DNA of 64,000 nucleotides from Bacteroidales bacterium (GTDB lineage Bacteria; Bacteroidota; Bacteroidia; Bacteroidales; WCHB1-69). Location of the stretch: positions 62,001-126,000 of the forward strand of contig JAFZIP010000003.1 of NCBI GenBank assembly GCA_017554325.1, in the 5' to 3' direction. Each line of letters starts with the position of its first letter. Positions within the stretch are counted from its first letter, which is position 1. Position numbers and translations under genes: made by a program. Below are positions 7,791 through 60,116 of this stretch, in pieces. Below the pieces are notes generated by a model. The model made no database searches. It was not told where the DNA came from and saw only the letters and a program-made list of their open reading frames with translations.

Positions 7791-7818
7791 GTAGAGACGC
7801 AATGCATTGCGTCTCTAC
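7791..7818. repeat. Dispersed palindrome, copy 2 (perfect, 28 bp)
   Basis: Perfect 28-bp palindrome beginning GTAGAGACGCAATG, 6 nt after the cytochrome c peroxidase stop codon. It may act as a transcript-end hairpin for that gene; see the copies at 4749, 17388, 45410 and 46617. Confidence 0.8.
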
Positions 7819-7823
7819 CGATA

Positions 7824-8930
7824 TTATTCCAAAAATTCCTCATCCGTCAGTGTGTTCAGAAACGCCTTGAGGTCGGCAATCTCGGATGGGGTGAGCAGGA
7901 TGCCCCCATCGTTGATGTGGTGCATGAGCGGGCTTACGTAGGGAGAAGGCTGCAGTCCTTGGTTGTAGAAGTTCAGCACCTCGTCCAGCGTTTGGAACCG
8001 TCCATCGTGCATGTAGGGCGCAGAGACGGCCACGTTGCGCAATGAGGGAGCTCGGTAAGCTCCGTGATCGGCATCATGGCCGGTGAATGAGTATCGGTCT
8101 TGGGGATCTATGAAGACGTTGTCCAGACCGTTGTTGTAGAACAGGTTGGTGGTGAACAATGGCGAACCTTCGCTGCCGTGGCAGTGGAAACAGTCGGCGC
8201 CCTCCTCTGTGGTGAAGAGGATGTAGCCGTGCAGCTCTTGTGGAGTGAGCTGTTCCTTGCCTTGTAGATAGCGGTCGAATTTGGAGTTGCCGGACACTAA
8301 CGAGCGCACGTACTGGGCGATGGCCTTCTGCACGCGCTCCATCGTGATCTCTTCGGAGCCGAAGGCCTTGCCGAACATTTCGGGATATTTGCTGTCGGCT
8401 CGCAGTGCTGCCAGCGTGCGGGCTTTCGTGCTGCACAGCTCGTCATCGGCCTCGATGGCCATCAGTACGATATCTTCGATGCTCTGGCGGCCCTTGACGT
8501 TTTGCGGGCAGATGCTGCCGTTCCAAGAGTAGCCCTCGTGGTTGAATACCAAGTTCATCAAAGGCATGGCGTTGTGGTGGGTGGCCTTGCCCGTGCGTCC
8601 GACTGGGCGCCCGTTCACCAAACGCGGATTGTCAGGACCCAAGTCGTAGTTGTGGGCACGGTCGTGGCAGCTGGCGCACGACATCAGTGAGTCCGGATTT
8701 GTACCGGTATAGCCGCAAAGATGAGGATCGTGGAACAGAGCGCGACCCAACTCCACGCCCTCCACGGTCATGGGATTGTCATCAGGAATGTTCAGTCTGG
8801 AGGGGAATCCATACGGAATGGCAATGTCCAGCGGGGTAGGGTCCTCATAGCGATGCCTGCAGGCTGCAAACATGAGTACCACTGCCCCGGTCAGGCAAGC
8901 GATTTTCCAATATGTCTTGAATTTATTCAT
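7824..8930 (-). CDS. Di-haem cytochrome c peroxidase (MauG/CcpA family) lipoprotein
   Basis: The 368-residue protein starts at 8930 (MNKFKTYW), overlapping the end of parC by 8 nt. A lipobox ends at C24 (LMFAAC), so it is probably a periplasm-facing lipoprotein. Two haem c motifs are present: CASCH (C85-H89) and CFHCH (C247-H251). Other family signs are the LGRALFHDP segment, the FSANxC-like start of the mature region and the APYMHDGRF motif near the C-terminus. Such enzymes reduce H2O2 to water with electrons from c-type cytochromes or, as MauG relatives, oxidise other substrates. The overlap with a topoisomerase gene probably reflects compact packing. Confidence 0.92.
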   Translation of the reverse strand: MNKFKTYWKIACLTGAVVLMFAACRHRYEDPTPLDIAIPYGFPSRLNIPDDNPMTVEGVELGRALFHDPHLCGYTGTNPDSLMSCASCHDRAHNYDLGPDNPRLVNGRPVGRTGKATHHNAMPLMNLVFNHEGYSWNGSICPQNVKGRQSIEDIVLMAIEADDELCSTKARTLAALRADSKYPEMFGKAFGSEEITMERVQKAIAQYVRSLVSGNSKFDRYLQGKEQLTPQELHGYILFTTEEGADCFHCHGSEGSPLFTTNLFYNNGLDNVFIDPQDRYSFTGHDADHGAYRAPSLRNVAVSAPYMHDGRFQTLDEVLNFYNQGLQPSPYVSPLMHHINDGGILLTPSEIADLKAFLNTLTDEEFLE

Positions 8931-11679
8931 CGAAAATGGAGAGCTGCACGCCCTCTTCGTCCAGCTTGTTGGGGTCTGATTTCTGCGGTTCCTTCTCAGA
9001 CAGGAACAGCTCTTTGGCCACCGCATCATCCACACTCTCTGGAACGGTCTCCATTTCGGCGTCCTCGATCATCTCTTCCTCTTCTTCCTCGGGTTCCTCC
9101 TCCGGCTCCTCGTATGGCAGCGGGTCAATGAACTTGATGGACTTGATTTCGGGGAAGTTGATGCGCTTGCCGCGGGCACGGACCGTCATCGGCTCCGTGA
9201 ATTCCGAAGTGGCGATAATCTCGATGCTGTCCTCCTCCGCTTTCTTCTTGTGGTAGGTTACCTTGATTTGCGGCAGGTAGTCGATGGAGATGTCGAGAAT
9301 CTTGCAGGTGCCGTCATCGGGTATGAAGTCGGTCTTTTTGACGGTTTGATCGGCAGGAAAACGTTTCAGATAGTATTTGTCTTCTTTCTTTTGATGATAG
9401 ACGACTGTAATCATCAGATTCTTGTTCCATTTGCGGATATAGAGCAGGTCGTCTTCAAAGTGTGTGGAAATCTCGAATCCCGTGATACGGTACCATCCGC
9501 TCTTATAGACGGTCAGGATCTTGTCGTCCTCTTTGAAAGCACCCAAAAGTTGGCCTCTGCCATCATTGTTGAGACGCATCACGGAGTCTTCATAGTAAAC
9601 GTTGATGGCACTCAAGGTGGAAACGCCCTTTTGGCTCATCTCGATGTGGGACACAGGGTAACGGGTGAGTATGTTGCCCATCGCGGAACGACTCTTTACC
9701 GCCAACTGGCTGAAGTCGAAGTCGAACTCTTTCTTCTTGAGCTTGGGCTTGGGTTTCAGTTTCACGCGGATGACTTCCGCTTCACCATTGGGATTTGAGG
9801 TGAAATAGATAATCTTGGAACCAGCTTTGCCCTTGGTGAGGTCGTACTCCTTGTCGCGGGACACGCCGCCGATAGCGAAACGTTTGACCATGGCTGGTCC
9901 GTTGCTGCCGTTGGTATAGACCAGATTGTAAATATGGCGGTCGTCGCCGCGCTTGAAGACCTCCACATGGAGGATGTTCTTGCCCACAAAGTGCTTGTCG
10001 GCCACCTTGCTGATGGAGAAAGTGCCGTTTTCGTGGAAAACGATGATCTCGTCCAAATCGGAACAGTCGCAGGCGTATTCCACGCCCTCGTCTTTCTTCA
10101 GGGCAGTGCCCACAAAGCCCTCTTTCTTATCGACATACAGTTTTTGGTTGGCCACGGCCACAGTGGAGGCCACGATGTTGTCGAATTCTTTGATTTCCGT
10201 GAGACGCTGCTTGTCGCCACCGTATTTCTTCTTCAGCTGGCGGAAATAATTGACGGCATAATCCACCAGATGGGCGAGGTTGTTCATTACCTCTTCCATG
10301 TACAGCTCAATGTCGGCAATCTCCTGTTCGGCTTTCTTGATGTCGAACTTGGAAATCTTGCGCACGGGCTTCTCACAGAGGGAGAGGATGTTTTCGCGAG
10401 TGATTTCCTGGCGGAAAAGGGAACGGTAGGGGTCAAAAGCACGCTCGATGTTGGTGACTTGCGTGTCCCAGGTATCGGTGTCTTTCTCTAATTCCTTATA
10501 GATTCTCTTCTCGAAGAAGATTTTTTCCAAAGAGATCTTATGCCATTGCTGATCCAGCTCGTCGAGTTGTATTTCCAGCTCGCGTTTGAGCAGTTGGAGG
10601 GTGTTTTCGGTGTTGATTTTGAGAATCTCCTTCACGTTGGTGAACCTCGGCTTGCCGTCCCAGATGACGCAGGCGTTGGTATAGTAGGTCATTTCGCAGT
10701 CGGTGAAGGCGTAGAGCGCGTCGATGGTTTGGTCGGGCGACACGCCGGGCTGCAGGTGCAGATAAATCTCCGCATTGGCGGCAGTGTTGTCGTCAATGCG
10801 TTTGATTTTGAGTTTGCCGCTCTCTACGGCATTGGAGATGGAACTCTTGGCTTCGGAGATAAGCTTGCCAGTGGTGGTGCCGAATGGGATTTCGGTGATA
10901 ACCAGGGTTTTGTTATCGACGATATTAATCTTGGCGCGGTTGCGGATTTTGCCGCCCTGCGCACCGTTGTTGTACTTGCTCACATCGATGGTGCCGCCAG
11001 TGGGGAAGTCGGGGTAAATCTCAAAGTCTTCGCCCCGCAGAATCTTGATGGAGGCATCGATCAGCTCGTTGAAGTTGTGGGGCAGGATTTTGGTGGACAT
11101 GCCCACGCCTACGCCATCCACGCCTTGGGCTAACAGCAAAGGGAATTTGATAGGCAGCGCGATAGGCTCCTTGTTACGTCCATCGTAAGAGATCTGCCAC
11201 TCGGTGGTTTTGTGGTTGAAGACGACCTCCAAAGCGAACTTGGAGAGTCTTGCTTCAATATAACGGGGCGCGGCCGCGGGGTCGCCCGTGAGGATATTGC
11301 CCCAGTTGCCCTGCGTGTCGATGAGCAGCTTTTTCTGTCCCAACTGCACCAGTGCTCCGCCGATGGACTGGTCGCCGTGCGGGTGGTACTTCATCGTATT
11401 ACCCACAATGTTGGCCACTTTGTTGTATCGCCCGTCCTCCAACTCGTCCATGGAGTGCAGGATGCGGCGTTGCACGGGTTTCAAACCGTCGTACACATCG
11501 GGAAATGCGCGGTCGAGTATGACGTAGGAAGCGTAGTCCAAATACCATTCGCGGTACATGGTTTGCGCAAAGATGACTTTATGAAGATCGGAAGGCTCAT
11601 GGCCTTCAGCGGGAACAATTTCTTCGCTTACAGTATTCTCCTCGTTGGCATCGAGGAGCTTGTCGTTTTTATCTGCCAT
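8923..11679 (-). CDS. parC: DNA topoisomerase IV subunit A (ParC)
   Basis: This 918-residue type IIA topoisomerase subunit has the N-terminal breakage-reunion domain (YASYVILDRAFPDVYDGLKP, then KYHPHGDQS) with the catalytic tyrosine Y140 in AAPRYIEARL. A GyrA/ParC C-terminal beta-propeller follows; a clear GyrA box is not seen. The last 60 residues are very acidic (EEPEEEPEEEEEE). The N-terminal extension of about 30 acidic residues before DLHKVIF and the overall length fit the Bacteroidota ParC group rather than GyrA. It decatenates chromosomes together with ParE, which is not in the window. A promoter (TATCTTTG) lies just upstream at 11700. Confidence 0.9.
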   Translation of the reverse strand: MADKNDKLLDANEENTVSEEIVPAEGHEPSDLHKVIFAQTMYREWYLDYASYVILDRAFPDVYDGLKPVQRRILHSMDELEDGRYNKVANIVGNTMKYHPHGDQSIGGALVQLGQKKLLIDTQGNWGNILTGDPAAAPRYIEARLSKFALEVVFNHKTTEWQISYDGRNKEPIALPIKFPLLLAQGVDGVGVGMSTKILPHNFNELIDASIKILRGEDFEIYPDFPTGGTIDVSKYNNGAQGGKIRNRAKINIVDNKTLVITEIPFGTTTGKLISEAKSSISNAVESGKLKIKRIDDNTAANAEIYLHLQPGVSPDQTIDALYAFTDCEMTYYTNACVIWDGKPRFTNVKEILKINTENTLQLLKRELEIQLDELDQQWHKISLEKIFFEKRIYKELEKDTDTWDTQVTNIERAFDPYRSLFRQEITRENILSLCEKPVRKISKFDIKKAEQEIADIELYMEEVMNNLAHLVDYAVNYFRQLKKKYGGDKQRLTEIKEFDNIVASTVAVANQKLYVDKKEGFVGTALKKDEGVEYACDCSDLDEIIVFHENGTFSISKVADKHFVGKNILHVEVFKRGDDRHIYNLVYTNGSNGPAMVKRFAIGGVSRDKEYDLTKGKAGSKIIYFTSNPNGEAEVIRVKLKPKPKLKKKEFDFDFSQLAVKSRSAMGNILTRYPVSHIEMSQKGVSTLSAINVYYEDSVMRLNNDGRGQLLGAFKEDDKILTVYKSGWYRITGFEISTHFEDDLLYIRKWNKNLMITVVYHQKKEDKYYLKRFPADQTVKKTDFIPDDGTCKILDISIDYLPQIKVTYHKKKAEEDSIEIIATSEFTEPMTVRARGKRINFPEIKSIKFIDPLPYEEPEEEPEEEEEEMIEDAEMETVPESVDDAVAKELFLSEKEPQKSDPNKLDEEGVQLSIFDE

Positions 11680-11699
11680 AGGTATAGATTAATGGACGG

Positions 11700-11728
11700 C
11701 AAAGATACAAAAAATAGGGATACGGCAA
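11700..11728 (-). promoter_or_regulatory. parC promoter
   Basis: -7 TATCTTTG at 11700-11707 and a TTG at 11726-11728 as -33, 18 nt apart, on the minus strand directly upstream of the ParC ATG at 11679. Confidence 0.55.
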
Positions 11729-11738
11729 GGAACCCATG

Positions 11739-12197
11739 CTATTGTTCCGGGGCAGGGGCGTTTTGTGGCGTCTGCTCTTGGTAAGTCTGGTCCATGTCCA
11801 CGATGTCGATAGCGTCAGGATCGACAGGGGGCAGAGTGTCGGTGATGGCCAGCTCTTTTTTCTTGGCCATAAGAATGGCGTTCGCATCTATCACCAGTTT
11901 TTTTGCGGCATCCTCGTCGCCCATGTAGTATTGCATGGAGGTGTTGAACTGCTCGCGCGTGACGTGATATCGCTCAAAAAGGTCATGGTAGTATCCTCTG
12001 GCACTCTCCACATTGTTAAGTGTGTCGTCAGGATTCAGAGTGATGAGGCTTTCGATGATGTAGGCCTCTGCAAGAATGTTTGCCATGGTGCTACGGTTGA
12101 TGAGGTTATCGGGCCTCTTCTGCACCTGTTTTTTGTGGCAGCCGGCAGAGAACAGTACCAACGGAATCAAGAGGATGTATAAGAAAGTCTTTTTCAT
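11739..12197 (-). CDS. DUF4296 lipoprotein
   Basis: The 152-residue protein begins with a lipoprotein signal (VLFSAGC, lipidated Cys at residue 20). The rest is mainly helical with the phrases NILAEAYIIES and YHDLFERYHVTREQFNTSM that are characteristic of DUF4296, a Bacteroidota family of unknown function. The C-terminus is Pro/Gln-rich. Its ATG overlaps the stop of the CCA-adding enzyme by 1 nt (TAATG), so the two are translationally coupled. Confidence 0.8.
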   Translation of the reverse strand: MKKTFLYILLIPLVLFSAGCHKKQVQKRPDNLINRSTMANILAEAYIIESLITLNPDDTLNNVESARGYYHDLFERYHVTREQFNTSMQYYMGDEDAAKKLVIDANAILMAKKKELAITDTLPPVDPDAIDIVDMDQTYQEQTPQNAPAPEQ

Positions 12198-13645
12198 TAT
12201 GCTTCGGGATGATTGATGATTTCATAGCCTAACTTCCGACCTTCCTCCATCATTTTCCGGAGGGCGGCGGGACGTGTGTTCTCAATTTCGCCGTCAAGAA
12301 TGGCATCGCAAACTGCATCTTTGATGATGCCAATGTCTTTGCAGGGTTTCATATCGAAGGTCTTCATGATGTCCAAACCGTCGATGGGCGGGCGCCAGTT
12401 GCGGAGCCTGTCCTTTTCTTCAATCTCGTGCATTTTCTCGCGCACCTTGGCGAAGTTCTGGAAGCAGCGGGTGATTTTGGCGGAGTTCTTGGAGGTGACG
12501 TCCGCGTGGCACAGCATCATCAGGTCGTCGATGTCATCGCCGGCTTCGAAGAGGAGTCTGCGCACGGCAGAATCGGTAATGGTGTCCTCTACCAATGCGA
12601 TAGGACGCAGGTGCAGTCCCACGAGCTTCTGCACGTACTTCATTTTCTCGTTGTTGGGCATGTGCAGGCGGTGGAAGATGCGGGAAACCATCTTCACGCC
12701 CACGGCATCGTGCCCATGGAAAGTCCAGCCCGCGATAGGGTCAAAGCGTTTGGTGACTGGCTTGGCGATGTCGTGCAGCAGGGCGGCCCATTCGAGCCAC
12801 AGGTTGGGACGTTCGCTGGCCATGGCCACGTTGTCAACCACTTCCAGCGTGTGCAGGAAATTGTCCTTGTGCCCTTTCCCGTTGATGAACTGCACGCCTT
12901 TGAGTGCAATCATTTCGGGTAAAAATCTCTCCAGCAAGCCGCTTTCATCCAGCATGTGAAAGCCTTTGGATGGGCGCAGGCAAACCAGTATCTTGTTGAG
13001 CTCCTCCACAATGCGCTCCTTGGAAATGATATCCAGACGGTAGGCATTGCGTTGGATGGCCTCGAAGGTTTCTGGGTAGATGTCGAAGTTGAGCTGCGTG
13101 GCGAAGCGCACGGCGCGCATCATGCGCAGCGGGTCGTCGGAGAAGGTCTTGTCGGGATCGCAGGGCGTGCGGATGATCTTGCCCTTGATGTCGGCGATGC
13201 CGTCGAACGGGTCAATCAGCTCGTATGCATGCTCGCCGTTCAGGGCGATGGCCATGGCGTTGATGGTGAAGTCGCGGCGCATCTGGTCGTCTTCCAGCGT
13301 GCCGTCTTCCACCACAGGCTTGCGCGAGTCGTGGCTGTAGGATTCCCTGCGCGCACCCACAAACTCGATGACGGAGCCCTCGAAGTTGAACTGGGCGGTG
13401 CCGAAGTTCTTATAGACGTTCACATGCAGTTCGGGGTCGATGAGTGCGGCAGTCTTTTTGGCCAGCTCAATGCCACTGCCAACGGTCACAATGTCGATGT
13501 CGGTGTTGTGGCGGCGCATGATGATGTCGCGCACCACGCCGCCCACGACGTAAGCTTCCAGCCCCAGCTCATCGGCAGCTTGTGCCACGATGGGGTAAAT
13601 GGGGTGGGAGAGTTCCTGCTTGTATGTCTTCGTTGTTTGTGTCAA
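12197..13645 (-). CDS. cca: CCA-adding tRNA nucleotidyltransferase with HD domain
   Basis: This enzyme adds or repairs the 3'-CCA end of tRNAs. The class II nucleotidyltransferase head is clear: YVVGGVVRDIIM and DIDIV (the metal-binding DxD), then the RRDFTINAMAI motif, and a C-terminal HD domain (LLHDIAKP). A reading frame extends upstream to 13744 but would overlap the next gene and start in AT-rich DNA that contains a -7 box (TATTTTTG at 13669-13676). I therefore prefer a TTG start at 13645 (LTQTTKTYKQEL), giving 482 residues; the next Met lies too far inside the fold. The start is the only uncertain part. Confidence 0.9.
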   Translation of the reverse strand: MTQTTKTYKQELSHPIYPIVAQAADELGLEAYVVGGVVRDIIMRRHNTDIDIVTVGSGIELAKKTAALIDPELHVNVYKNFGTAQFNFEGSVIEFVGARRESYSHDSRKPVVEDGTLEDDQMRRDFTINAMAIALNGEHAYELIDPFDGIADIKGKIIRTPCDPDKTFSDDPLRMMRAVRFATQLNFDIYPETFEAIQRNAYRLDIISKERIVEELNKILVCLRPSKGFHMLDESGLLERFLPEMIALKGVQFINGKGHKDNFLHTLEVVDNVAMASERPNLWLEWAALLHDIAKPVTKRFDPIAGWTFHGHDAVGVKMVSRIFHRLHMPNNEKMKYVQKLVGLHLRPIALVEDTITDSAVRRLLFEAGDDIDDLMMLCHADVTSKNSAKITRCFQNFAKVREKMHEIEEKDRLRNWRPPIDGLDIMKTFDMKPCKDIGIIKDAVCDAILDGEIENTRPAALRKMMEEGRKLGYEIINHPEA

Positions 13646-13668
13646 AATCAGGTTTTGAATTTCGCGTG

Positions 13669-13676
13669 CAAAAATA
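13669..13676 (-). promoter_or_regulatory. -7 box for cca
   Basis: TATTTTTG on the minus strand, 24 nt before the proposed TTG start at 13645. It argues against the longer reading frame. No convincing -33 at normal spacing. Confidence 0.45.
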
Positions 13677-13704
13677 GCAAAAAAAACAAGGATTTTGCTT
13701 GTGA

Positions 13705-15399
13705 CTATTGTCCGAACGTTCCGAGGAGTGCGCCCGACACGCACCAGGAACTGAAACTGCCGCCTTCATTTTCTCCTTGCGGAATGGCGATGGTCATGGT
13801 GTGCTCGCCGGGCTTCAGGTCCGAGAGGTCGAAATAGACGGGCTGTGTGGCTGTGCCTGGGCACCAACCGGAGCGCGAGTAATCGGAGGATGACATCCCG
13901 TTCCAAAAGTTTCCGGATGCCGGATTGGAGGTCCTGTATGTGCCGCAGTCGCCGCGCCAAGGCGTGTAGATGTAGCGTGGAATACCATCAATCAGAATGG
14001 TGTTTGGCTTGGGCACAAATTCATCGCCCGTGTCCCAGCCGCCATGCCCCGTGGAAATGTAGCGCATCTTCAAATCCTTGAGACTGTTGGGTACATAGAA
14101 GACCACCTTCAAGCTGTCGGTGCGGAAGAACTTGCCGTAGTTCTGTCCAGCCATTTCCATGACATTGCACGTGTTGAACAGCGGCAGTAGCATCTCAACA
14201 TTGTCGTCGTCATATTCCCAGCGGTCATCTTCAGGGTAGGCTTTCAATGTGAGCGACAGCTTGTGCCCGCCCTTGTCGTAGTTGCCGATGAATACCCCGA
14301 TATAAACATCTCCTTGAAACAAGGGTTTCAAGTCGCTGATATCCTGTTTGTAAGAGACTTGTTCGGCCCACTCGCGGTCTGGCAATGAGCGGTACTCGTT
14401 GTAGTGCCGCACGCCGAATGGAGTGAAGAATCGCATCAGTTCTACTGGTGGAAGATATGTGTCGGTGTAAGTCATACCTTGGTAACGCTCACCCGACTTG
14501 TCGGTGAAGTAGGGGAGCACCTGTATGCTGTCCATCAAGGCGTGCAGGAACGACTGGCGCAGAGCCATGGGGATGACAAACACCGAGCCGGTGCGGTCGT
14601 AGGCGTCGCCATTGGAGTATTCGGACACTTCTACGAACACGCGATAGTGCTCCGGCAAGCGCGTCATATCCACCCTCTTCAGGATGATGGTGCCGTTAGC
14701 CAAATGGTAAACCGAATCGTACTCAATACTATAGGGCTTTTTTATCTGCGGGTTGAAGCATATTTGTTCCTCCTCGAAAATGGGGGTTGTGATGACCAAC
14801 TTGTCTTTCTCTAATTGATTCAGTTCCGAATAACTCTTTCTCTCACCAAAATCACTTGGGAACAGATCGGTGATTTCCTTGTCTTTGGTGGCGCTGGCTA
14901 ATTCCATGACTGCGTTGCCGTTTCGGAGATATTTGACTAGCACACCGGGTAATGATGCGAAACTGGCAATGGGAGTGGCTCGGAATTTCAAATCCTCAGT
15001 GGTCCACAATTCTATCTTGTTGGAAAATAAAACGATAGAATATTTGGTGCAGTTGTAGTCGTTCACTTTTTCCTTGCCTTCCTGTTTGAATTCGTAGTCT
15101 TTGCGGATGGAACTGCTGCAATAGTACATTTCATCAACTTGGTAGAACAATTGGGTGATGAGGGTGTCTTGCTTATAATCAAGATAGGTGTAATGCGTGG
15201 CTTTGCCGGGTACGGGGTGCTCCGTCGGTTTATCCGCCGACTGGATTTTCAGTTGCGTGCCCTGGCGTAACACTTCCGTGCGGGAGGTGTCGTTTCCGCC
15301 AATGGAATAGGATTGGTAGAGCAGTCGGTTTTGTGCCGAAACGGTTGTCAAGCAGCATGTTGTCAGGATGCTGATGAGGAGGATATATGTTCTTTTCAT
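13705..15399 (-). CDS. Exported GLPGLI / peptide-N-glycosidase F-like protein
   Basis: The 564-residue product starts at 15399 (MKRTYILLI) with a signal peptide to about residue 22 (TTVSAQ). Residues about 23-200 look like a GLPGLI-type domain (YNCTKYSIVLFSNKIELWTT and SLPGVLVKY). The C-terminal half resembles the two-domain PNGase F fold: YISTGHGGWDTGDEF, KPNTILIDG, WRGDCGTYR and RSGWCPGTATQPV match the order of landmarks in flavobacterial PNGase F. That enzyme removes N-glycans from glycoproteins at Asn. If active, the protein would support use of host or dietary glycoproteins; the active-site acids need alignment to confirm. Confidence 0.75.
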   Translation of the reverse strand: MKRTYILLISILTTCCLTTVSAQNRLLYQSYSIGGNDTSRTEVLRQGTQLKIQSADKPTEHPVPGKATHYTYLDYKQDTLITQLFYQVDEMYYCSSSIRKDYEFKQEGKEKVNDYNCTKYSIVLFSNKIELWTTEDLKFRATPIASFASLPGVLVKYLRNGNAVMELASATKDKEITDLFPSDFGERKSYSELNQLEKDKLVITTPIFEEEQICFNPQIKKPYSIEYDSVYHLANGTIILKRVDMTRLPEHYRVFVEVSEYSNGDAYDRTGSVFVIPMALRQSFLHALMDSIQVLPYFTDKSGERYQGMTYTDTYLPPVELMRFFTPFGVRHYNEYRSLPDREWAEQVSYKQDISDLKPLFQGDVYIGVFIGNYDKGGHKLSLTLKAYPEDDRWEYDDDNVEMLLPLFNTCNVMEMAGQNYGKFFRTDSLKVVFYVPNSLKDLKMRYISTGHGGWDTGDEFVPKPNTILIDGIPRYIYTPWRGDCGTYRTSNPASGNFWNGMSSSDYSRSGWCPGTATQPVYFDLSDLKPGEHTMTIAIPQGENEGGSFSSWCVSGALLGTFGQ

Positions 15400-15413
15400 G
15401 AAGATGAGGAATT

Positions 15414-16367
15414 TCAAAGGTTTGAATTGTTTGGAATGAGCAGAAAGTCTGCGATAACCATGGCGGCCATGGCTTCCACCACGGGCAATACGCGCGGGGA
15501 CACGCACAGGTCGTTGCGGTTGGAACCGTAATAGATAGCAGGATTGCCATCATAGTCGATGCTCTCTTGGTCGAAACGCACCGAGGGGATGGGTTTGAAA
15601 GCCACTCTGAAAACGACCTCCTGGCCGTTGGTGATGCCGCCTTGCACGCCTCCGTCGTGGTTGGTGCGGAACGAGAAGTCAGTATTTTGGAGATCATTGT
15701 ATTGGCTGCCAGACATTTCTGTGGCGTGGAAACCCTCGCCGATTTCGAATCCTTTGGCAGCGTTGATGGACATCATGGCGTAGGCGAGACGGGCGGAGAA
15801 CTTGTCATGCACGGGCTCGCCCAGCCCGGCCGGCAGGCCCTGGATGCGGCATTGCACGAGTGCGCCCACGCTGTCGCCCTCGCGCGCGGGAGTGCCCGTG
15901 CGGAGCGTCTCCGCCGTGATGGCAATGCCGTGGGGGCGCAGAATCAGTTTGGCGATGGCGCCCGCCACTACACGGCAGGCAGTCTGTCGCGCCGAAGCAC
16001 GGCCCATCTGCTCGTTGTCGCGGAAACCGTACTTCTTGAAGTAAGTGTAAGAAGCGTGCGACGGCTTGATTACGTGTCTATTGCGCTCGTCTATCTGAAC
16101 ATCTTGATTAGGTATCTGAAAGCGGATAGGCTCGCCTGTGGCAATGTGGTTTTCATCTATTCCTGACAGGAAAATGACAGGGTCTTTCTCGCGGCGTTGG
16201 GTGCTCTCGGCATTTTGGGATGGCGCGCGCCGGGCCATTTCGCTTTGGATGAAATCGAAATCGATGGGCGTGCCTTTGGGACAACCCTCAATCACCCCTT
16301 CCAGATAGGGATCATGCGTGCCACCTTTGTCGGTGAGCTTATAGAAGATTCCAAAAGTATCTGTCAT
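15414..16367 (-). CDS. aroC: Chorismate synthase
   Basis: Chorismate synthase makes chorismate from EPSP with reduced FMN, the last step of the shikimate pathway. Recognisable parts are EGCPKGTPID, RRAPSQ, the SHASYTYFKKYGFRD stretch with the conserved His, GRASARQTACRVVAGA, and a C-terminal FRTNHDGGVQGGITNG and RVAFKPIPS. At 317 residues it is shorter than the usual 350-400. The normally strict GESHG near the N-terminus reads GGTHD here. The gene ends 14 nt before the PNGase-like gene begins. Confidence 0.92.
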   Translation of the reverse strand: MTDTFGIFYKLTDKGGTHDPYLEGVIEGCPKGTPIDFDFIQSEMARRAPSQNAESTQRREKDPVIFLSGIDENHIATGEPIRFQIPNQDVQIDERNRHVIKPSHASYTYFKKYGFRDNEQMGRASARQTACRVVAGAIAKLILRPHGIAITAETLRTGTPAREGDSVGALVQCRIQGLPAGLGEPVHDKFSARLAYAMMSINAAKGFEIGEGFHATEMSGSQYNDLQNTDFSFRTNHDGGVQGGITNGQEVVFRVAFKPIPSVRFDQESIDYDGNPAIYYGSNRNDLCVSPRVLPVVEAMAAMVIADFLLIPNNSNL

Positions 16368-48966: not shown

Positions 48967-50049
48967 ATGTCCAAACGCGTCTTGATGGCCATGAGTGGCG
49001 GCATCGACAGCAGCGTGTCTGCGTTGATGCTTCTGGAGCAGGGATATGAGCTGGTGGGCGCCACTTTCCGCACGTTCGACTACATCAAAGAGTCGTGCCT
49101 GGCCAAGGAAAAGGGCTGCTGCTCGGTGGAGAGCATTATGGAGGCCAAGCATTTCGCCGAATCGCTGGGCGTGGAGCACCATATCCTGGATTTCCGGCAG
49201 CTGTTCCGCGACCATGTGATCGCCAATTTCGTGCAAGAGTACAAGCTCGGGCGCACACCCAACCCGTGCGTGCTCTGCAACTCGCACATCAAGTGGGGTG
49301 TGTTGCTGAAGGCCGCCGATGAGCTTGGCTGCGACTACATAGCAACAGGGCACTACGCGCGCATTGCGCAGCACCGTGGGCACTATTACCTGCAAACTGC
49401 CGCCGATGAGCACAAGGACCAGACCTATTTCCTCTGGATGCTTACCGAAGAGAACCTCAAACGCACCATTTTCCCGCTGGGCGACCTGACGAAGCCCGAA
49501 GTGCGGAAAATTGCGGCAGATCATCATTTCGAGAAACTGGCTAAGAAGAGCGAATCGCAAGAGATATGCTTCATTCCTAACAATGATTATCGCAGTTTCC
49601 TGGCTGAACAGGGCTGCGAAACCAGTCCGGGCAATTTCATTGATATGGAAGGTAAAGTGTTAGGCCAGCATCCCGGCTGCTTCAATTTCACAATAGGGCA
49701 GCGCAAGGGCATGGGCATGGCGTTCGGCTCGCCCAAGTATGTGACCAAAATTAACACTGAAACCCGCGAGGTTACGGTGGGTGATCGCGATGATCTGTTC
49801 TGCAACAATGTGTATGCCACCGATGTGCGCTTGCGTGACGAGGAGTGGTTGCGCGAGTCGCCGGAGCTGATGGCTCGCATCCGTTACAAATCGCCGGCCA
49901 CCGAAGCGAAATTGATTCTGGAGGATGATTTTTCAGATACCGGCCGCATCCGTCTGCATTTCCACAAGCCGGTTTGGGGCGTTACGCCCGGACAATCCGT
50001 CGTACTGTACAAGGATGGCTTGTTGGTGGGCGGCGGGTTGATAGGGTAG
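48967..50049 (+). CDS. mnmA: tRNA-specific 2-thiouridylase
   Basis: MnmA puts sulfur on U34 of tRNA Lys, Glu and Gln. The 360-residue protein has the PP-loop MSGGIDSSVSA, the first Cys in TPNPCVLCN, the second in SQEICFIP, IATGHYARI and KDQTYFLWML. It follows SOD by 5 nt and likely shares its transcript. Confidence 0.94.
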   Translation: MSKRVLMAMSGGIDSSVSALMLLEQGYELVGATFRTFDYIKESCLAKEKGCCSVESIMEAKHFAESLGVEHHILDFRQLFRDHVIANFVQEYKLGRTPNPCVLCNSHIKWGVLLKAADELGCDYIATGHYARIAQHRGHYYLQTAADEHKDQTYFLWMLTEENLKRTIFPLGDLTKPEVRKIAADHHFEKLAKKSESQEICFIPNNDYRSFLAEQGCETSPGNFIDMEGKVLGQHPGCFNFTIGQRKGMGMAFGSPKYVTKINTETREVTVGDRDDLFCNNVYATDVRLRDEEWLRESPELMARIRYKSPATEAKLILEDDFSDTGRIRLHFHKPVWGVTPGQSVVLYKDGLLVGGGLIG

Positions 50050-50059: not shown

Positions 50060-51178
50060 TTACGTGCACAGCCATTCCACTGTTCTTGCTTCGAACACTT
50101 TCGGAATGACCAGCTTGCCGAGCATTTTTTCGATGGCCGATTGAGGAACCGCATCTTCACGTGATTGATTTCTTTCCAATAAAGTCTGCCAATCTGTTTC
50201 AAGATAGACTATGTGAACATGGGCGTGATAGGTTTCGAAAAGATTGATGAGAGACTCTCTCATCTGCGAGGTGAAGTTGGTGGCATTCCATACAAACGAC
50301 TGGTGTTTGCGGAGATACTCCTTGGCTAAATCACGGGCAATGTTGGCCACACGGCCTTGCTCATCTGTTGGTAAGATTTTGTGCGCTTTTCGAATCTCAT
50401 CCAGGGAAATCATCGGCAGGTTCGGGATGTTTTTTTCAATCCAAAAGTCTTTTCCAGTGCCGGGCAATCCACTCATCATGATGACTTCCCCCCAGGTGTC
50501 ATCGTATAAGTTCTGCTCTTTCCATACATCCCGTCCAGAGAGGAATGCCCTTCGGGTATGTAGGGATGAAAAAGGATAGCACGCATCAAGGCAGCCCTCT
50601 TCCTTGGCCAATTCTTCGCACAGTGCAATTTTGTCGAGCAACTCCTGCTGGTCGCTACACTGACGGCCCAACATGTCGGCTTTGCAGAGAATGCAGAGCA
50701 TTTTGATGGAGAAGTCGGGAACCAACAAACTGTTTGCTGCCATGCGGTGCAATCTCAGTCGGGCGTTCAGATGCTCGATGGCGACAGGCGGAAAAGAATG
50801 ATAACGGATGAGCAGACAAATGGCTTCACGAACTTCCATCAGTTCTTGTTTCCCGCACAGTCCATACTCTTTCCACAGCAATTTCCGTACCATTCTGCTG
50901 CCTGTAGGCGCATGATGCGGGGTATGCCAGTCGCCGGATTCGAACACCGTGGTCGGAATCTTGCCGATGTCGTGTAGCAATGCCGCGACGTACAGAATAT
51001 GCTGATGCCGTTCGTTGAGTTCTTGATATTCGGGCAGGCTTTTTAAGGCTTCGATGACCATCATGGTATGTCGCAATACGTCCCCTTCGGCATGATATAC
51101 AGGCGACTGTTGCGTCTGGCGCAAGCCTTCTGCAAAGAGGTCAAGTACCGTTGATTCTATGTTGTTCCAGTCTATCAT
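50060..51178 (-). CDS. HD-PNK: HD phosphoesterase plus polynucleotide kinase
   Basis: The 372-residue protein joins two RNA end-healing domains. Residues about 25-190 are an HD phosphohydrolase (H37 in LRHTMMVIEAL, HD at 69-70 in ALLHDIGKIP, then HHAP). Residues about 228-372 are a P-loop kinase with MMSGLPGTGKDFWIEK and SLDEIRKAH. In characterised HD-Pnk enzymes of Bacteroidota the HD part removes 2',3'-cyclic or 2'-phosphate and the kinase phosphorylates 5'-OH, making ends ready for a ligase. The gene begins directly after the RNA ligase stop (no gap), as expected of a healing-and-sealing pair. It is the last gene of the four-gene operon. Confidence 0.88.
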   Translation of the reverse strand: MIDWNNIESTVLDLFAEGLRQTQQSPVYHAEGDVLRHTMMVIEALKSLPEYQELNERHQHILYVAALLHDIGKIPTTVFESGDWHTPHHAPTGSRMVRKLLWKEYGLCGKQELMEVREAICLLIRYHSFPPVAIEHLNARLRLHRMAANSLLVPDFSIKMLCILCKADMLGRQCSDQQELLDKIALCEELAKEEGCLDACYPFSSLHTRRAFLSGRDVWKEQNLYDDTWGEVIMMSGLPGTGKDFWIEKNIPNLPMISLDEIRKAHKILPTDEQGRVANIARDLAKEYLRKHQSFVWNATNFTSQMRESLINLFETYHAHVHIVYLETDWQTLLERNQSREDAVPQSAIEKMLGKLVIPKVFEARTVEWLCT

Positions 51179-51970
51179 CTACACAAATAATTCTTCCATT
51201 CTCTTTGTGATTCTGTTCGGTACAATGGGTCGGTCGAGCCAGTTCGTTTGTGATTCTTCAATGCTTTGAAGGAAAGAGGCGCGTACGTATTTCATCCTGT
51301 CAACCACCTTGCCGTTCTCTTCAATTTTGATGTATATGCCTTCCATGGTGCGCGACGCATCCGTCTCTCGGCAGATTTGGTCGCCATCCAACCCCAGACG
51401 TATCGCATCTTCGCGCAGGTGATCCATGTGATTTTCTGAGATGTAGAGAGAATCGCCCAAGTGTTTCAGAATCTCCTCTATGTTTTTGAAAACACCGCTG
51501 GCGAGCACCGGTACATGGCTTACGGGCAGGTTCTTCAGCAAATCATGGCGTGAAGGGGTGTCGAGGAACTTCCCGGTCTCGCGGTCTAGCACGTCAAATT
51601 CCATGAAATAATGCGGCAGCAGGTCGTAATAGATGCTGTGCTTGGCGTACATCCATTCTCCGTACATGATATATCGGCTTCCGAGAACCTCGTGAAACTT
51701 GTCCTGGTGTACGGCAGCCCATTGTTTCAGAAGGTCGTAGTGTCGCTCACGGTAGCCGCCAGTCAGGAAATGTCCGCGGCTTTGCAATCGCAGGTCACCG
51801 TTTTCAGAGAACGAAACTGCCGAGTTTGCCCCGTCAATTTTCTCTTCCAGCACCACGTGCCGGTCCACAAGATCGGTGAACGGTCGCTGACTCAAATCCT
51901 CGTCGCCTGGCTGTAATCTTGATCCTCGCAAATGCGGTGTGCGCGGGTATTTAATGATAATATCTTCCAT
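51179..51970 (-). CDS. ATP-dependent RNA ligase
   Basis: Starting at 51970 (MEDIIIKYP) the protein has 263 residues; a further ATG at 51997 would overlap the methyltransferase. It has the covalent nucleotidyltransferase motifs in order: motif I EEKIDGANS with the AMP-accepting K44, motif III-like YIMYGEWMYAKHS and FMEFDVLD, motif IV MEGIYIKIE and motif V DRMKYVRASF. This size and order fit Rnl-type RNA ligases rather than NAD- or ATP-dependent DNA ligases, which carry an OB domain. It would seal 3'-OH/5'-phosphate ends prepared by HD-PNK. Confidence 0.85.
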   Translation of the reverse strand: MEDIIIKYPRTPHLRGSRLQPGDEDLSQRPFTDLVDRHVVLEEKIDGANSAVSFSENGDLRLQSRGHFLTGGYRERHYDLLKQWAAVHQDKFHEVLGSRYIMYGEWMYAKHSIYYDLLPHYFMEFDVLDRETGKFLDTPSRHDLLKNLPVSHVPVLASGVFKNIEEILKHLGDSLYISENHMDHLREDAIRLGLDGDQICRETDASRTMEGIYIKIEENGKVVDRMKYVRASFLQSIEESQTNWLDRPIVPNRITKRMEELFV

Positions 51971-51977
51971 ATTCCGC

Positions 51978-52607
51978 CTATTGATTAATATATGCAACCA
52001 TCACTGTGTGATTCGTCACCGACATGAACTTCACTTTCACGCATCCTTGCTGCAAAAAAAGCAATCTCAAATCCTCTTTGGAAAACAGGTGGATGTGCTC
52101 CGGATTGTTATCGGGCTTGGATGGCACCGATACGATAACATAGTTTCTCGCCAATCGGACGGCATTGCGGACTACCGCTTGCGTGTCAGGAATATGTTCC
52201 ATCACTTCCAGCATGGTCACCACATCAAATGATTTGTCGGGGACGTTGTAGCAGCAGATGTCGCCCATGATCGGATGGAGGTTTTCAATGCCGCCGTCGT
52301 GGATGCATTGTAGTAATTCCACCCGATGAGGCAGTATGTCGAGGCTTGTCATCTCCATGTCTGGGAATTCCCTTAGCAGCGGGAAGAGGAACACACCCCT
52401 GCCGCTGCCTACATCGAGCAGCGACTGGCACTGTCCAAGCGCCACAATTCCTTGCAAAAATCCCAGCACCACCTGCACTCTCGGCAGATCGTCTTTTACT
52501 TTGAAGTAATAATCTTTCCGTTCGGGGGCTTTTTCCGCATCCTGGTATCGCATCTCGAAGCCCCGTTTGTATGCCTCAAAGAGTTGGGGAATGTATTGCT
52601 GTTCCAT
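51978..52607 (-). CDS. Class I SAM methyltransferase of the RNA-repair operon
   Basis: The 209-residue protein has the SAM-binding SLLDVGSGRGVFLFPLL (motif I), TSLDILPHRV (motif II) and the acidic DVVTMLEVMEHIPD. The E-x-x-E-H in LEVMEH and a later His in EHIHLFSKEDL echo the metal site of Hen1-type 3'-terminal RNA 2'-O-methyltransferases, although many other small methyltransferases share this pattern. Start and stop are within 2-7 nt of its neighbours. In this operon it might mark repaired or protected RNA ends; the substrate is inferred, not shown. Confidence 0.8.
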   Translation of the reverse strand: MEQQYIPQLFEAYKRGFEMRYQDAEKAPERKDYYFKVKDDLPRVQVVLGFLQGIVALGQCQSLLDVGSGRGVFLFPLLREFPDMEMTSLDILPHRVELLQCIHDGGIENLHPIMGDICCYNVPDKSFDVVTMLEVMEHIPDTQAVVRNAVRLARNYVIVSVPSKPDNNPEHIHLFSKEDLRLLFLQQGCVKVKFMSVTNHTVMVAYINQ

Positions 52608-52609
52608 TG

Positions 52610-54325
52610 TTAATTCCTGTTAAAAAGAGATAGAGTGTTCGGCTTGATGATGATGTTGCGGACTGTCATCAATGAATACCCCAATAAATTATCCAATTCC
52701 CAGTTGGCTGGATCTTGTATGCGTTCGTCTGTCCTGTCGAATCCGATTCCCCAATCGCTATCGCTACTGTCATATATTAGGATACGGTCTTTGGTTTCTA
52801 ATAACGCTTTCTTGCACGCTTCGTTCTGTGTGAATTTTTGATAGTTTCCGTATAAAGCAACCGAATTCCGGTAATTAACCCAAACATCATCATCAAATTC
52901 CTTTATTTGTTTCCCTAAATCCAGTATCTCTTGTTTGGAAGTGGCACGTAGGATTTTTTCTCGGGTTTGCATATCACTGAATATGCGTGCCTTTTCTGCT
53001 TCCAGGAACTGTCCTGCAGAATTATAAGACACATTTTCGATTCTTAGCGAACATGGCCACCAGAAACCGAAGATTTCTTCTTGATGGGAGGAAGATGTTT
53101 TTCCGTCATCATTAAAAAAGAAGAAATCAGAACTGTTATCTTTAAGCAATGTGTCAATGTTCGGCCACCAATTGCCAATCTTATCCTCGATGCCTGGAAT
53201 AGGATACCTGAAATCAAAGTGTGTCAATTCCAGATGAGGGAAACCGTGCGGATACATGTCGATGTATCTTGACATCCATTGTATTTGCTCTGATTGACTA
53301 TTATCACCATCGCTGAAATTGCAGCCTTGGGTCAAGTCATCGGCCAGCGCAATGATGACGTCTGATAGTTCAAGATTGTCCTTATGGTAGGACGGAATCC
53401 TGTCATAACCATAAATCGCCCCCATAATACTGCCACAAATGGCGGCTGACACACAACTGTTTCCGTCATGATTGGCAGCCGCTACAATGGCATCTTCAAA
53501 ACTGTCAAAATGCCTCAGGACGCAATATAATGCAATGGCCAGGGATTCATCACCAGTCCGTGCCCTGCCAAGTGATTGTATGTTCTCTTCATCAGAAAGG
53601 GAGTTCGTTGCCAGGCAAATAGACTTTTCCATCAACTCCAAACAGACCGACTTTTCCAATAGCAATGACATCCCCGATGCATTCAGTTCGTCTGGAAGGA
53701 CATCTGTTATGACAGAGCAAAGCGTGAGTATCATTTGACTCAATGTGCTTGCGGAGAATCCTTCTTTTTGACTGCAAATACAAAAGAGAAGCAAAGGCAA
53801 ATAAACAGAAGAGAAGTACCCTTTGGGAGAGCGGAAACAGCATTCATACGCTAATTTCAATACGCTTTCTTGCGTCCATTCGCAGCCTCGTGCTGTGCTT
53901 GCGGCTCCCCATAGTCCAAGCGGAAACAGACGCAAACCTTCGTCATAGACAGAACCTCTGTTTACATTTAAAGCGGCAATATCGCGGATCCAACAGAGAT
54001 GTTTTTCCTTGGAAGGAATGTTTTTGTGCGTCCACGCCCATTCAGAGTGTGCGTCCAGTATGAGAATATCAAGCTGTGGTGTTGTTCCCAGTACAGATGA
54101 TTTGGTGTCACCATGCAATATAGCATTTGCGGTGAACAAGGCCATCTGCGTTTCATTTGAAAACACGGCTATCCCATTGTTGTCCAATTCGAACTTTGTG
54201 ATTCCCGCATCGCCATACTTGTTTCTGATTTCTTGCAGAGAAATATTTGAGACAGGGTATCCTAAAGCGTCACCAATGGCCCCGCCGATCATCGAACCTC
54301 TTATTTTGTCTTGTAAAGTACTCAT
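52610..54325 (-). CDS. ADP-ribosylglycohydrolase-NADAR fusion with altered active-site residues
   Basis: The 571-residue protein is a two-domain fusion. Residues 1 to about 310 form an ARH/DraG-type fold (RGSMIGGAIGDALGYP, FSNETQMALFTANAIL, ANHDGNSCVSAAICGSIMGA). Residues about 420-560 form a NADAR/YbiA-like domain (FLEAEKARIF, LGKQIKEFDDDVW, KFTQNEACKKALLET, DWGIGFD, LLGYSLMTVR). ARH enzymes remove ADP-ribose; NADAR proteins remove ADP-ribose from guanine in nucleic acid. In typical ARH the first metal site reads (S/T)DDT and the second GDSDST-like; here they are SNET (56-59) and GNSCVS (288-293). In NADAR the usual E-Q/H-Y is GQF (G438). So both sites look changed. It is the first gene of the repair operon, with TATCTTTG at 54361. 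Confidence 0.82.
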   Translation of the reverse strand: MSTLQDKIRGSMIGGAIGDALGYPVSNISLQEIRNKYGDAGITKFELDNNGIAVFSNETQMALFTANAILHGDTKSSVLGTTPQLDILILDAHSEWAWTHKNIPSKEKHLCWIRDIAALNVNRGSVYDEGLRLFPLGLWGAASTARGCEWTQESVLKLAYECCFRSPKGYFSSVYLPLLLFCICSQKEGFSASTLSQMILTLCSVITDVLPDELNASGMSLLLEKSVCLELMEKSICLATNSLSDEENIQSLGRARTGDESLAIALYCVLRHFDSFEDAIVAAANHDGNSCVSAAICGSIMGAIYGYDRIPSYHKDNLELSDVIIALADDLTQGCNFSDGDNSQSEQIQWMSRYIDMYPHGFPHLELTHFDFRYPIPGIEDKIGNWWPNIDTLLKDNSSDFFFFNDDGKTSSSHQEEIFGFWWPCSLRIENVSYNSAGQFLEAEKARIFSDMQTREKILRATSKQEILDLGKQIKEFDDDVWVNYRNSVALYGNYQKFTQNEACKKALLETKDRILIYDSSDSDWGIGFDRTDERIQDPANWELDNLLGYSLMTVRNIIIKPNTLSLFNRN

Positions 54326-54360
54326 TGCTGGATGACCTTCCCTGAAATCATATTAGGATG

Positions 54361-54368
54361 CAAAGATA
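54361..54368 (-). promoter_or_regulatory. -7 box of the RNA-repair operon
   Basis: TATCTTTG on the minus strand, 36 nt upstream of the ARH-NADAR ATG at 54325. It separates the operon from the genes at 54384-55954. No clear -33 at normal spacing. Confidence 0.55.
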
Positions 54369-57167: not shown

Positions 57168-58541
57168 TTATATAAGTCCTTCAATAAACTTGTCGAAATC
57201 GGAGAGTAACGTCCGGTCTTGGATTCTCCGGAACTTCTCGTATTCACCGAAAGCTTTGGCTTCGGCCTCTTCATAACTGATTGTGCCGGCATCCGGAAGA
57301 ATGTCAGCATCCGACACCTTCAGGTATTGCTCCAGTACGGATTTCCAATCATCCATCTTCGTTAGAAGGTGACGCTGTGCCCGCCGTTCGGCAATGTCCA
57401 GAAATGCGGTGGTTAGCAGGTTCAGTTCATTCACCTCCTTCTCTGACAGATAGTTTTTCGCTACAGTCACATCGCTTTTGATGACCCGCCCGTCAGGTGC
57501 GTTCTTCCAGGTCATCAATCCCATGTGAGGTTTCTCGGCATCGGCGCGGTCATATACAATCTCCGCCGCCGTCTTATGCGTAACGGCATAGTGCATCATA
57601 TTCTGCACCGTCTTGTAGAATGCTCGTGTTGTCACGCTGTCCCTGTCGTAGTCGATGCTGCATTCGGCATAGATGTCGGTGATTTTCTGGTAGTAGCGAC
57701 GCTCGGAGGTGCGGATTTCTCGGATGCGTTCCAGCAGCTCCTCGAAGTAGTCGGCACCGAAGGGATTCGTCCCCTTCAGCCGCTCGTCGTCCATCACAAA
57801 ACCTTTGATGATGTACTGCTTCAGCACCTCGCGAGCCCAGATGCGGAACTGCGTGGCCTCGTAGCTGTTCACGCGGTAGCCGACAGCGATGATGACATCG
57901 AGATTGTACATCAGAACGCCCTGTTCGTCCCATTTTTCCGACAGAATTTGAATTTTTCGAATAGCATCGGACAAATGGACTTCTCCACTTTCGTCAATTT
58001 GTTTTAGGTGGTAGTTGATAGTTGAAACATCAACAGAAAAGAGTTCCGACATCCTGCGCTGCGACAGCCAAAATGTCTCGTTGTTAAAGAGCACCGAGAC
58101 ATTCACCTTGCCGGTACTCGAACGGTATATCAGCACGTTGCCCTCTATGCTGGAGGCCAGTTCTTTCGATGTGATTTGAGCTGAGAAGTAATCTTTGGCT
58201 GTCTGTACCATAGGTTTTCTTTGGTCGGCATTTGTGACGATGGTTAGGCAGGCTGTCTTTGAAAGCATTATTGATGTTACTTGGCGCATGGTGCCGGCTC
58301 CCAGCTGTGCCATCTCCGTGATCTCCACCATGTGTTCATTTATATCCAGTCCCTTCTCTTGTTGCAGAAAAGCGGCGGCCTTGTCCATCAGTCGCTCGAA
58401 GTTCCAGTATTTTTGGTAACCGAGCAGTCGCGCCAGCTTGCGCGAGTTCCACCACTCGTGGCCTTCACCGTCCACAACCTTGATCGCCTCAAACGGCGAC
58501 TGCATTTCTTCGGGGTTTAACAATGTCTCTTTCTGTTCCAT
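57168..58541 (-). CDS. DinD-like N-terminal domain fused to RhuM-family protein
   Basis: The 457-residue protein has two known parts. Residues about 17-120 resemble the N-terminus of DinD/BRO-like proteins (GHEWWNSRKLARLLGYQKYWNFE, VEITEMAQLGAGTMRQV, LSKTACLTIVTNADQRKPM). Residues about 130-457 match virulence protein RhuM (LIYRSSTGKVNVSVLFNNETFWLSQ, SVDVSTINYHL, NLDVIIAVGYRVNS, FRIWAREVLKQYIIKGFVMD). DinD is DNA-damage induced in E. coli and RhuM was named in Salmonella; both are found in defence and mobile-element settings. A TATCTTTG promoter lies at 58564-58571. Confidence 0.85.
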   Translation of the reverse strand: MEQKETLLNPEEMQSPFEAIKVVDGEGHEWWNSRKLARLLGYQKYWNFERLMDKAAAFLQQEKGLDINEHMVEITEMAQLGAGTMRQVTSIMLSKTACLTIVTNADQRKPMVQTAKDYFSAQITSKELASSIEGNVLIYRSSTGKVNVSVLFNNETFWLSQRRMSELFSVDVSTINYHLKQIDESGEVHLSDAIRKIQILSEKWDEQGVLMYNLDVIIAVGYRVNSYEATQFRIWAREVLKQYIIKGFVMDDERLKGTNPFGADYFEELLERIREIRTSERRYYQKITDIYAECSIDYDRDSVTTRAFYKTVQNMMHYAVTHKTAAEIVYDRADAEKPHMGLMTWKNAPDGRVIKSDVTVAKNYLSEKEVNELNLLTTAFLDIAERRAQRHLLTKMDDWKSVLEQYLKVSDADILPDAGTISYEEAEAKAFGEYEKFRRIQDRTLLSDFDKFIEGLI

Positions 58542-58802: not shown

Positions 58803-60116
58803 CTACATATCCTCAATCGAGAGACCTTTGAGCGAAAGGGCATATTCGCCGAAGGTTTTGGGCGGCAACACGCTAACTTTCTCTTGCAATTCCTTAAGGC
58901 TGATTTTTCGGGAATTGCGCTTGATTTCGGCCGCCATTCCCGTGTGGTCGAACTCGTTGAGGGCAATCATATCTATCTCGTTCTCGCCCTTGCGGTCCCA
59001 CCAATTGCCCACCAGGGTGTACTGTCCCGTCTCCATCGCCTGTGTCTGGAAATACTGCTCCATCGTCCTGCCGGTAAACTGCTCATAGTGCTGCCCCATA
59101 TTCTGACGCAACAATGCCAACTGACCACGTTCGACGAGCGACTGGTACGGCCACACAAAGCGGAACCAGAAACGCAGAAACTGGTCGGAAATCTCGTAGG
59201 AAGTCACCTTGCTGTTCGGTTTGGCAAGCAGTGGCTTCAGTCGGCTCACCATCAGGAAGTTCTTCTCCAGGTTCTGCAGATAGACACCCATGTCCTTCTG
59301 CATGGCCCCGTCGATTTCCGAGCGCGTGGTCAACCCTCCGGCAATCAGCTGCAGGATAGAGAAATAGGTGGCACTCTCGTCGCTGAACTCCTGATTCATG
59401 ATGTCGCGCCCTTCGGAGAGGAAATAGGAATCCTGACGGCAGACATAGTTCAGCATCTTCTCCTTCGTGTAGCAGCCAGCATCCATCAGCAATTCCACAT
59501 ATTTGGCCACACCGCCGGTAATCATGTATAGGCAAAGCAAATCCTCGTTTTTATAATCTGGACAGTGGTCGCGGAATATCTGCTTCAGAACGCTGATGGC
59601 GAAGGGCTTTAGCGTCAGTTTCGAAGTGGGGCGGCCGTAGAGCGGCTCGTTCTCGTTCTCGAAGATTCGCTTCATCAGCGACTGGATGCTGCCCGACGTG
59701 ATGAGATAGAGGTGTGATTCGCGGTGGTAGCGGTCCCACAGGTCCTGTATCTCGCTGAAGATGGCGGGGTTCACCTTGTAGAGCGTCTGGAACTCGTCGA
59801 AGATGATGATGAAATGGCGGTTCAGCGACTCCTTCATAATAACCTCAAACAGATCGCGGAAGTGGCTGACGGTGCCGTAGATGTGAATGCCCAGCTGCTC
59901 CTCCAGCGTCTGCTGGAATTTCTGGCAGAGCACCGCCTCGCTGTCCTTCGAGACGAAGAGATAGGCGTAGTCGTAATCCTTCAATGCCGTCGTGATTAGC
60001 GTAGTTTTACCTACACGCTTGCGTCCCATCAGTACTGTAAACACCGCACTCTTTCTCGACTGCAGTTCATTCTCTTTCAGAATATTTATCTCGCTCTCCC
60101 TGTCGTAGAATTTCAT
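58803..60116 (-). CDS. P-loop ATPase with DUF234/PD-(D/E)XK-like C-terminus
   Basis: The 437-residue protein belongs to the archaeal-type ATPase group common in bacteria and archaea. The start is MKFYDRESEINIL, then VLMGRKRVGKTTLI (Walker A), FIIIFDEFQTLYK (Walker B), LITSGS (sensor 1) and a winged-helix part. The C-terminal DUF234-like nuclease fold shows ENEIDMIALNEFDHTGMAAEIKR, with the D-(x)n-E-x-K order. These proteins are frequent in accessory and mobile regions but their role is not settled. A TATGTTTG box lies at 60163-60170. Confidence 0.85.
   Translation of the reverse strand: MKFYDRESEINILKENELQSRKSAVFTVLMGRKRVGKTTLITTALKDYDYAYLFVSKDSEAVLCQKFQQTLEEQLGIHIYGTVSHFRDLFEVIMKESLNRHFIIIFDEFQTLYKVNPAIFSEIQDLWDRYHRESHLYLITSGSIQSLMKRIFENENEPLYGRPTSKLTLKPFAISVLKQIFRDHCPDYKNEDLLCLYMITGGVAKYVELLMDAGCYTKEKMLNYVCRQDSYFLSEGRDIMNQEFSDESATYFSILQLIAGGLTTRSEIDGAMQKDMGVYLQNLEKNFLMVSRLKPLLAKPNSKVTSYEISDQFLRFWFRFVWPYQSLVERGQLALLRQNMGQHYEQFTGRTMEQYFQTQAMETGQYTLVGNWWDRKGENEIDMIALNEFDHTGMAAEIKRNSRKISLKELQEKVSVLPPKTFGEYALSLKGLSIEDM

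Follow-up and report, generated by a model that had tools for sequence, protein, structure and literature searches.

This analysis concerns a compact operon in a 64-kb stretch of DNA from a Bacteroidales bacterium (the window, meaning the whole stretch that was analyzed), in which a fusion of an ARH half to a NADAR half precedes a methyltransferase, an RNA ligase and an HD-PNK. With a probability of about one half, we read it as an RNA-repair cassette that was gained by horizontal transfer and is preceded by an ADP-ribose-binding protein without hydrolytic activity, which would act as a reader or adapter; the role of the fusion is most likely recognition or docking of ADP-ribose (ADPr) rather than its removal. 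Based on their open reading frames (ORFs), the four minus-strand genes are packed into positions 50060-54325 with intergenic spacing of 2, 7 and 0 nt behind a TATCTTTG box (Table 1), a layout that an earlier note on this DNA had described correctly. The products match the Pfam families ADP_ribosyl_GH (9e-32) and NADAR (7e-33) for the fusion, Methyltransf_23 (4e-13), RNA_ligase (5e-37), and HD (1e-9) with AAA_33 kinase (1e-22) for HD-PNK. From the spacing, we infer that the four genes are co-transcribed.

The predicted model of the fusion (mean predicted local distance difference test score, pLDDT, of 75) consists of an ARH fold (residues ~1-334), a low-confidence linker (~335-398) and a NADAR region (~399-560). 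Both folds are recognizable, with structure matches to MJ1187, ARH3 and NADAR 8bau, and by fold and Pfam family the two halves belong to ARH/DraG and to NADAR, respectively. Both active sites look inactivated, and the residue losses are evident at the level of sequence. In the ARH half, the SDDT metal motif has become SNET and DSDS has become NSCV, which departs from the binuclear metal site (T/S-D-D, D-x-D-T/S); in human ARH3, each of the four metal-binding aspartates is required for activity (PMC8141533). Additionally, the N-x-S-K-G-C-G-G phosphate loop of ARH relatives is deleted and two histidines common to these relatives are both gone. Among the 112 alignment columns that do not vary between five canonical relatives, the fusion keeps 1 of 14 in the active site versus 70 of 98 elsewhere (Fisher p=5e-6), and with the deleted loop left out it keeps 1 of 8 versus 70 of 98 (p=0.0017).

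The NADAR half has lost both ribose-contacting carboxylates and kept its phosphate contacts. In the NADAR of P. nicotianae, E43 and E125 contact the distal ribose, and K50, W89 and W133, together with D130 via water, contact the pyrophosphate; substitutions of E88 in E. coli C7 NADAR abolish in vivo protection (PMC11543638). Within the conserved E/K pair (E88 and K95 of C7), the glutamate is replaced by G438 in the fusion and the lysine is retained as K445. At the position of the catalytic acid (E125/D171), Y518 is aligned and D519 adjoins it. Alignment with relatives indicates that W482, D522 and W525 are retained along with K445. The earlier note had envisaged that the operon removes or recognizes ADP-ribose on nucleic acid. 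Removal by the fusion is unsupported because both active sites are altered; recognition of ADP-ribosylated RNA is still a role the protein could play, given that the NADAR half retains its phosphate-binding residues. Since the ARH metal site and phosphate loop and both ribose-contacting NADAR carboxylates are lost while the folds and pyrophosphate contacts persist, ADP-ribose binding without cleavage is the most likely function, and this combination of kept folds, kept phosphate grip and lost chemistry is more in keeping with a binder than with a hydrolase or with a gene decaying at random.

The remaining genes point to RNA repair. In an alignment of 16 ligase sequences (from Bacteroidales, Lachnospiraceae, cyanobacteria, planctomycetes, proteobacterial plasmids and viral contigs), nucleotidyltransferase motifs I (KxDG), III, IV and V are intact in the window ligase as EEKIDGAN, GEW, EGIYIK and MKYVR. 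HD-PNK joins an N-terminal HD phosphohydrolase (HAEGDV..HT, LLHDIGK) to a C-terminal P-loop 5'-OH kinase (GLPGTGKD, WNATN), with H37, H69-D70, GLPGTGKD, D260 and WNATN conserved in an alignment of nine sequences. We then examined 41 distinct HD-PNK loci drawn from genome, viral and plasmid collections, and in 30 of them a ligase is encoded in the same direction no more than 3 kb away; more plasmid cases exist, Deinococcus among them, and the two genes occur together in different phyla, on plasmids and in phages. Thus, the ligase and HD-PNK form a widespread two-gene RNA-repair pair; the earlier note had likewise read them as a repair pair for cut RNA. The intact motifs support a predicted function in RNA end healing and sealing, with the biochemistry taken from family knowledge and partly from Deinococcus work, in which kinase activity was demonstrated and the ligase was inactive on DNA (PMC1997131). 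Related loci vary in content. Another Bacteroidales genome carries a 146-aa ORF without a Pfam match between ligase and HD-PNK (L013, 995-1435), an alternative insert in the pair; its HD-PNK is 73% identical to that of the window. Two viral contigs (L121 and L122) encode HD-PNKs that are 61-63% identical to the window protein and have no ligase within 3 kb; these are closer to it than any found outside Bacteroidales genomes, and the bacterial gene may have come from such a virus.

The closest relative, from the same genus (G013), has a methyltransferase-ligase-HD-PNK operon without ARH-NADAR. Its HD-PNK is 75% identical to the window protein, and the next upstream gene on the operon strand is ~450 nt away and unrelated. 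The earlier note had proposed counting ARH-NADAR genes next to RNA ligase-HD-PNK pairs, with near-absence counting against its reading; near-absence is largely what the counts show, since within 6 kb of HD-PNK an ARH occurs at 1/41 loci and a NADAR at 2/41, and neither is part of the G013 operon. No second ARH-NADAR fusion was found in ~800 other Bacteroidota genomes at the sensitivity used (393 at order level, 395 at phylum level and 40 of the genus, samples that partly overlap), nor in the phage, plasmid and viral collections at that sensitivity. The matches were separate ARH or separate NADAR genes; in the viral collections no ARH locus had a NADAR domain, and the lone NADAR near an ARH was a separate gene. 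On the neighborhood counts, together with the genus, order and phylum searches, we rejected a conserved four-gene module of ARH-NADAR and RNA repair.

The methyltransferase is similarly restricted. It carries the sequence LEVMEHIPD (ExxEH), a motif that occurs in UbiG-like enzymes too, and its only other copy found is the 81% identical orthologue in G013; it lies within 4 kb of HD-PNK in 1/41 loci, and no viral copies were found. As it was seen only in the window operon and G013, we rejected it as a common partner of the repair pair. An identity as a Hen1-type 3'-terminal RNA 2'-O-methyltransferase was likewise not established, with no match to the Hen1 model and no structure match; the AlphaFold model, built from two sequences, has a pLDDT of 34. 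The operon is best described as an ordinary, widespread RNA-repair pair to which a rare methyltransferase and a catalytically degenerate ARH-NADAR fusion, apparently without a second copy, have been added.

Base composition and distribution bear on the origin of these genes. GC content at third codon positions (GC3) is 0.45 in the fusion, 0.57-0.61 in the other three operon genes and 0.72 in the neighboring mnmA. Of the 36 searched genomes from the genus, two carry HD-PNK, at different places, and the mnmA neighborhoods of four relatives lack the operon and have different flanks. Based on these features, acquisition is probable for the repair genes and for the fusion alike, and they probably came from different sources.

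How might such a cassette function? A ribotoxin or anticodon nuclease would cut RNA, generating 2',3'-cyclic phosphate and 5'-OH ends. HD-PNK would then take off the 2'/3' phosphate and phosphorylate the 5' end, and the ligase would adenylylate and seal the ends; both steps are deduced from the intact motifs and family knowledge. The methyltransferase probably modifies RNA or an associated protein. The fusion would bind an ADP-ribose moiety without cleaving it (on ADP-ribosylated RNA, on an ADPr-blocked end or in a free ADPr derivative) and may tether or regulate the repair enzymes. A more specific version, in which two retired hydrolases form a dedicated ADP-ribosyl-RNA reader that brings the healing-sealing complex to, or licenses it for, RNA that is both ADP-ribose-marked and cut, is speculative and we consider it rather unlikely. 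No description of such a read-then-repair arrangement was found in a literature search that did not take in the 2016 RNA-damage and repair survey (10.1093/nar/gkw722).

Several observations weigh against a binding protein that serves repair. The closest relative has the repair cassette without the fusion, which is thus dispensable to the cassette. Because the data hold a single fusion sequence, selection on it is unmeasurable. Judged from its sequence, the ARH half, without the loop conserved in relatives, may not bind ADP-ribose at all. Lastly, D519 beside Y518 could stand in for the NADAR catalytic acid, which is conceivable because the acid used by C7 NADAR, D171, is a displaced aspartate too. 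This last point leads to an alternative that we consider improbable: the NADAR half would have kept the ability to erase ADP-ribose from RNA, the ARH half would be a scaffold, and the operon would remove ADP-ribose and then heal and seal the RNA. NADARs do act on guanosine-ADPr RNA (PMC11833690), and the fusion retains the equivalents of K95, W89, R93, D130 and W133. Such an eraser would have to function with both carboxylates altered together, at positions where relatives retain glutamate in 59/59 and 58/59 cases, and the loss of protection in the C7 E88 mutants argues against it.

The main dull alternative treats the fusion as a passenger, decaying or neutral, that happens to precede an ordinary RNA-repair cassette; we regard this as about as likely as a surviving eraser. 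A single known copy, lost active sites, absence from the sister operon and a different base composition are all as expected of a passenger. A neutral gene would not readily account for an intact 571-codon ORF placed 2 nt from the methyltransferase, for losses that cluster in the ARH active site instead of being spread evenly, or for NADAR phosphate-binding residues kept within confident predicted folds. The kept phosphate-binding portion of the pocket would also suit a sensor or sink for a small ADP-ribose signal, such as cyclic ADP-ribose (cADPr), ADPr-1''-phosphate or ADPr>P, instead of RNA, which would regulate the operon or host defense. We consider this the least likely of the alternatives; the fusion has no DNA-binding domain, no TIR or KptA source gene is adjacent, and KptA was not found in the genome carrying the operon. 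A second ARH that could serve as a partner was also not found elsewhere in that genome, and no ART domain, such as the adjacent DarT/ART toxin gene of DarT-NADAR toxin-antitoxin pairs would supply, was present in the operon or the scanned neighboring genes.

That RNA repair can be linked to the handling of ADP-ribose has been published before; the specific arrangement described here appears to be a new form of that link. The Deinococcus radiodurans HD-Pnk operon (DRB0100-DRB0099-DRB0098), proposed to repair ADPr-blocked RNA or DNA ends (PMC1997131, PMC11833690), similarly combines an HD-phosphohydrolase-P-loop kinase, a ligase and an ADP-ribose protein. There, however, the ADP-ribose protein is the active PARG macrodomain DRB0099 and not a degenerate ARH-NADAR fusion, the methyltransferase is an addition of the window operon, and the window HD-PNK is only ~27% identical to the Deinococcus proteins found. 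The bacterial Pnkp-Rnl-Hen1 complex (PMC4411300) also unites end healing, a ligase and a methyltransferase on ribotoxin-cut RNA, but its healing enzyme has another architecture and, as noted above, the window methyltransferase does not match the Hen1 model. Similar to the ARH half, the vertebrate pseudo-ARH ADPRHL1 is an ARH-family protein that has lost its catalytic residues (PMC7390403, PMC10601310); it belongs to a heart muscle context and has no NADAR.

Association of NADAR with RNA-repair systems, and neighborhoods of ARG (ARH) with NADAR and HD phosphatases, are already described (PMC9503650). In the sections consulted there is no mention of a single-chain ARH-NADAR with both active sites altered directly ahead of methyltransferase-ligase-HD-PNK. 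In our own data, a related Bacteroidales genome (G167) carries on one strand genes for RtcB, a 3'-5' exonuclease, PrfH, KptA, RNA ligase and HD-PNK, continuing with an NrtR-type Nudix regulator, a radical SAM protein, a canonical NADAR, a canonical ARH and Macro. Similar to the window, RNA ligase and HD-PNK lie on one strand with NADAR and ARH within 5 kb. It differs in that NADAR (with the glutamate kept) and ARH (with SDDT and GGDTDT kept) are separate canonical genes, KptA, Macro and the Nudix regulator are present, and both the fusion and a methyltransferase of the window type are lacking. This cluster is a good candidate for a complete RNA-repair/ADP-ribose system and an independent instance of the two activities coming together, as published reviews state (PMC9503650). 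Separately, G169 (L040/L022, G169:C1) encodes an 845-aa protein in which a phosphatase-like part is flanked by ARH-like parts on both sides, and G024 (L201, G024:C20) has a similar long open frame of 868 aa; this arrangement recalls published ARG-phosphatase systems.

Table 1. Positions of the operon features in the window (aa, amino acids; SAM, S-adenosylmethionine) and of a comparison cluster.
Feature	Position	Strand	Basis
TATCTTTG, candidate Bacteroidota -7 promoter element	54361..54368	-	Motif match (TAnnTTTG); 36-43 nt 5' of first start codon
Pseudo-ARH-NADAR fusion, 571 aa	52610..54325	-	ORF, Pfam, alignment, predicted model
ARH metal motif 1, degenerate: S56-N57-E58 (S-D-D in relatives)	54152..54160	-	Alignment
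ARH metal motif 2, degenerate: N289-S290-C291-V292 (D-S-D-S in relatives)	53450..53461	-	Alignment
NADAR G438; Glu in 59/59 relatives (E88 of E. coli C7 NADAR)	53012..53014	-	Alignment, PMC11543638
NADAR Y518-D519; Glu aligned with Y518 in 58/59 relatives (E125 of P. nicotianae NADAR)	52769..52774	-	Alignment
Class I SAM-dependent methyltransferase, 209 aa	51978..52607	-	Pfam, LEVMEHIPD (ExxEH)
PF09414 RNA ligase, 263 aa from ATG	51179..51970	-	Pfam, nucleotidyltransferase motifs
HD-PNK, 372 aa	50060..51178	-	Pfam, HD and P-loop kinase motifs
G167 RNA-repair/ADP-ribose cluster	L019 (G167:C1:13000-32900), about 6263-15991	one strand	

The Bacteroidota -7 promoter consensus is TAnnTTTG. Counting both strands, the 64 kb contain 47 copies of it, and thus the chance of one within ~60 nt upstream on the correct strand is ~2%. 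Position therefore lends modest support to TATCTTTG as a putative promoter element of the operon; no clear -33 element was seen upstream with the box. An alternative TTG start of the RNA ligase is possible 27 nt 5' of the ATG. At the other end, mnmA (48967-50049) reads toward the operon and ends 10 nt from it. No structured RNA or tRNA was found in the window. Upstream of the operon are a RhuM-family protein with a BRO-N-like part (57168-58541) and an archaeal-type ATPase/DUF234 protein (58803-60116), both possible mobile-element cargo.

If the reader role is true, the fusion would be a bacterial reader of RNA-borne ADP-ribose that couples this mark to RNA repair, and it would offer a direct way to ask whether ADP-ribosylation and cutting of RNA coincide in bacterial warfare. 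Already now, its degenerate sites caution against naming ARH or NADAR genes hydrolases before their active sites have been checked.

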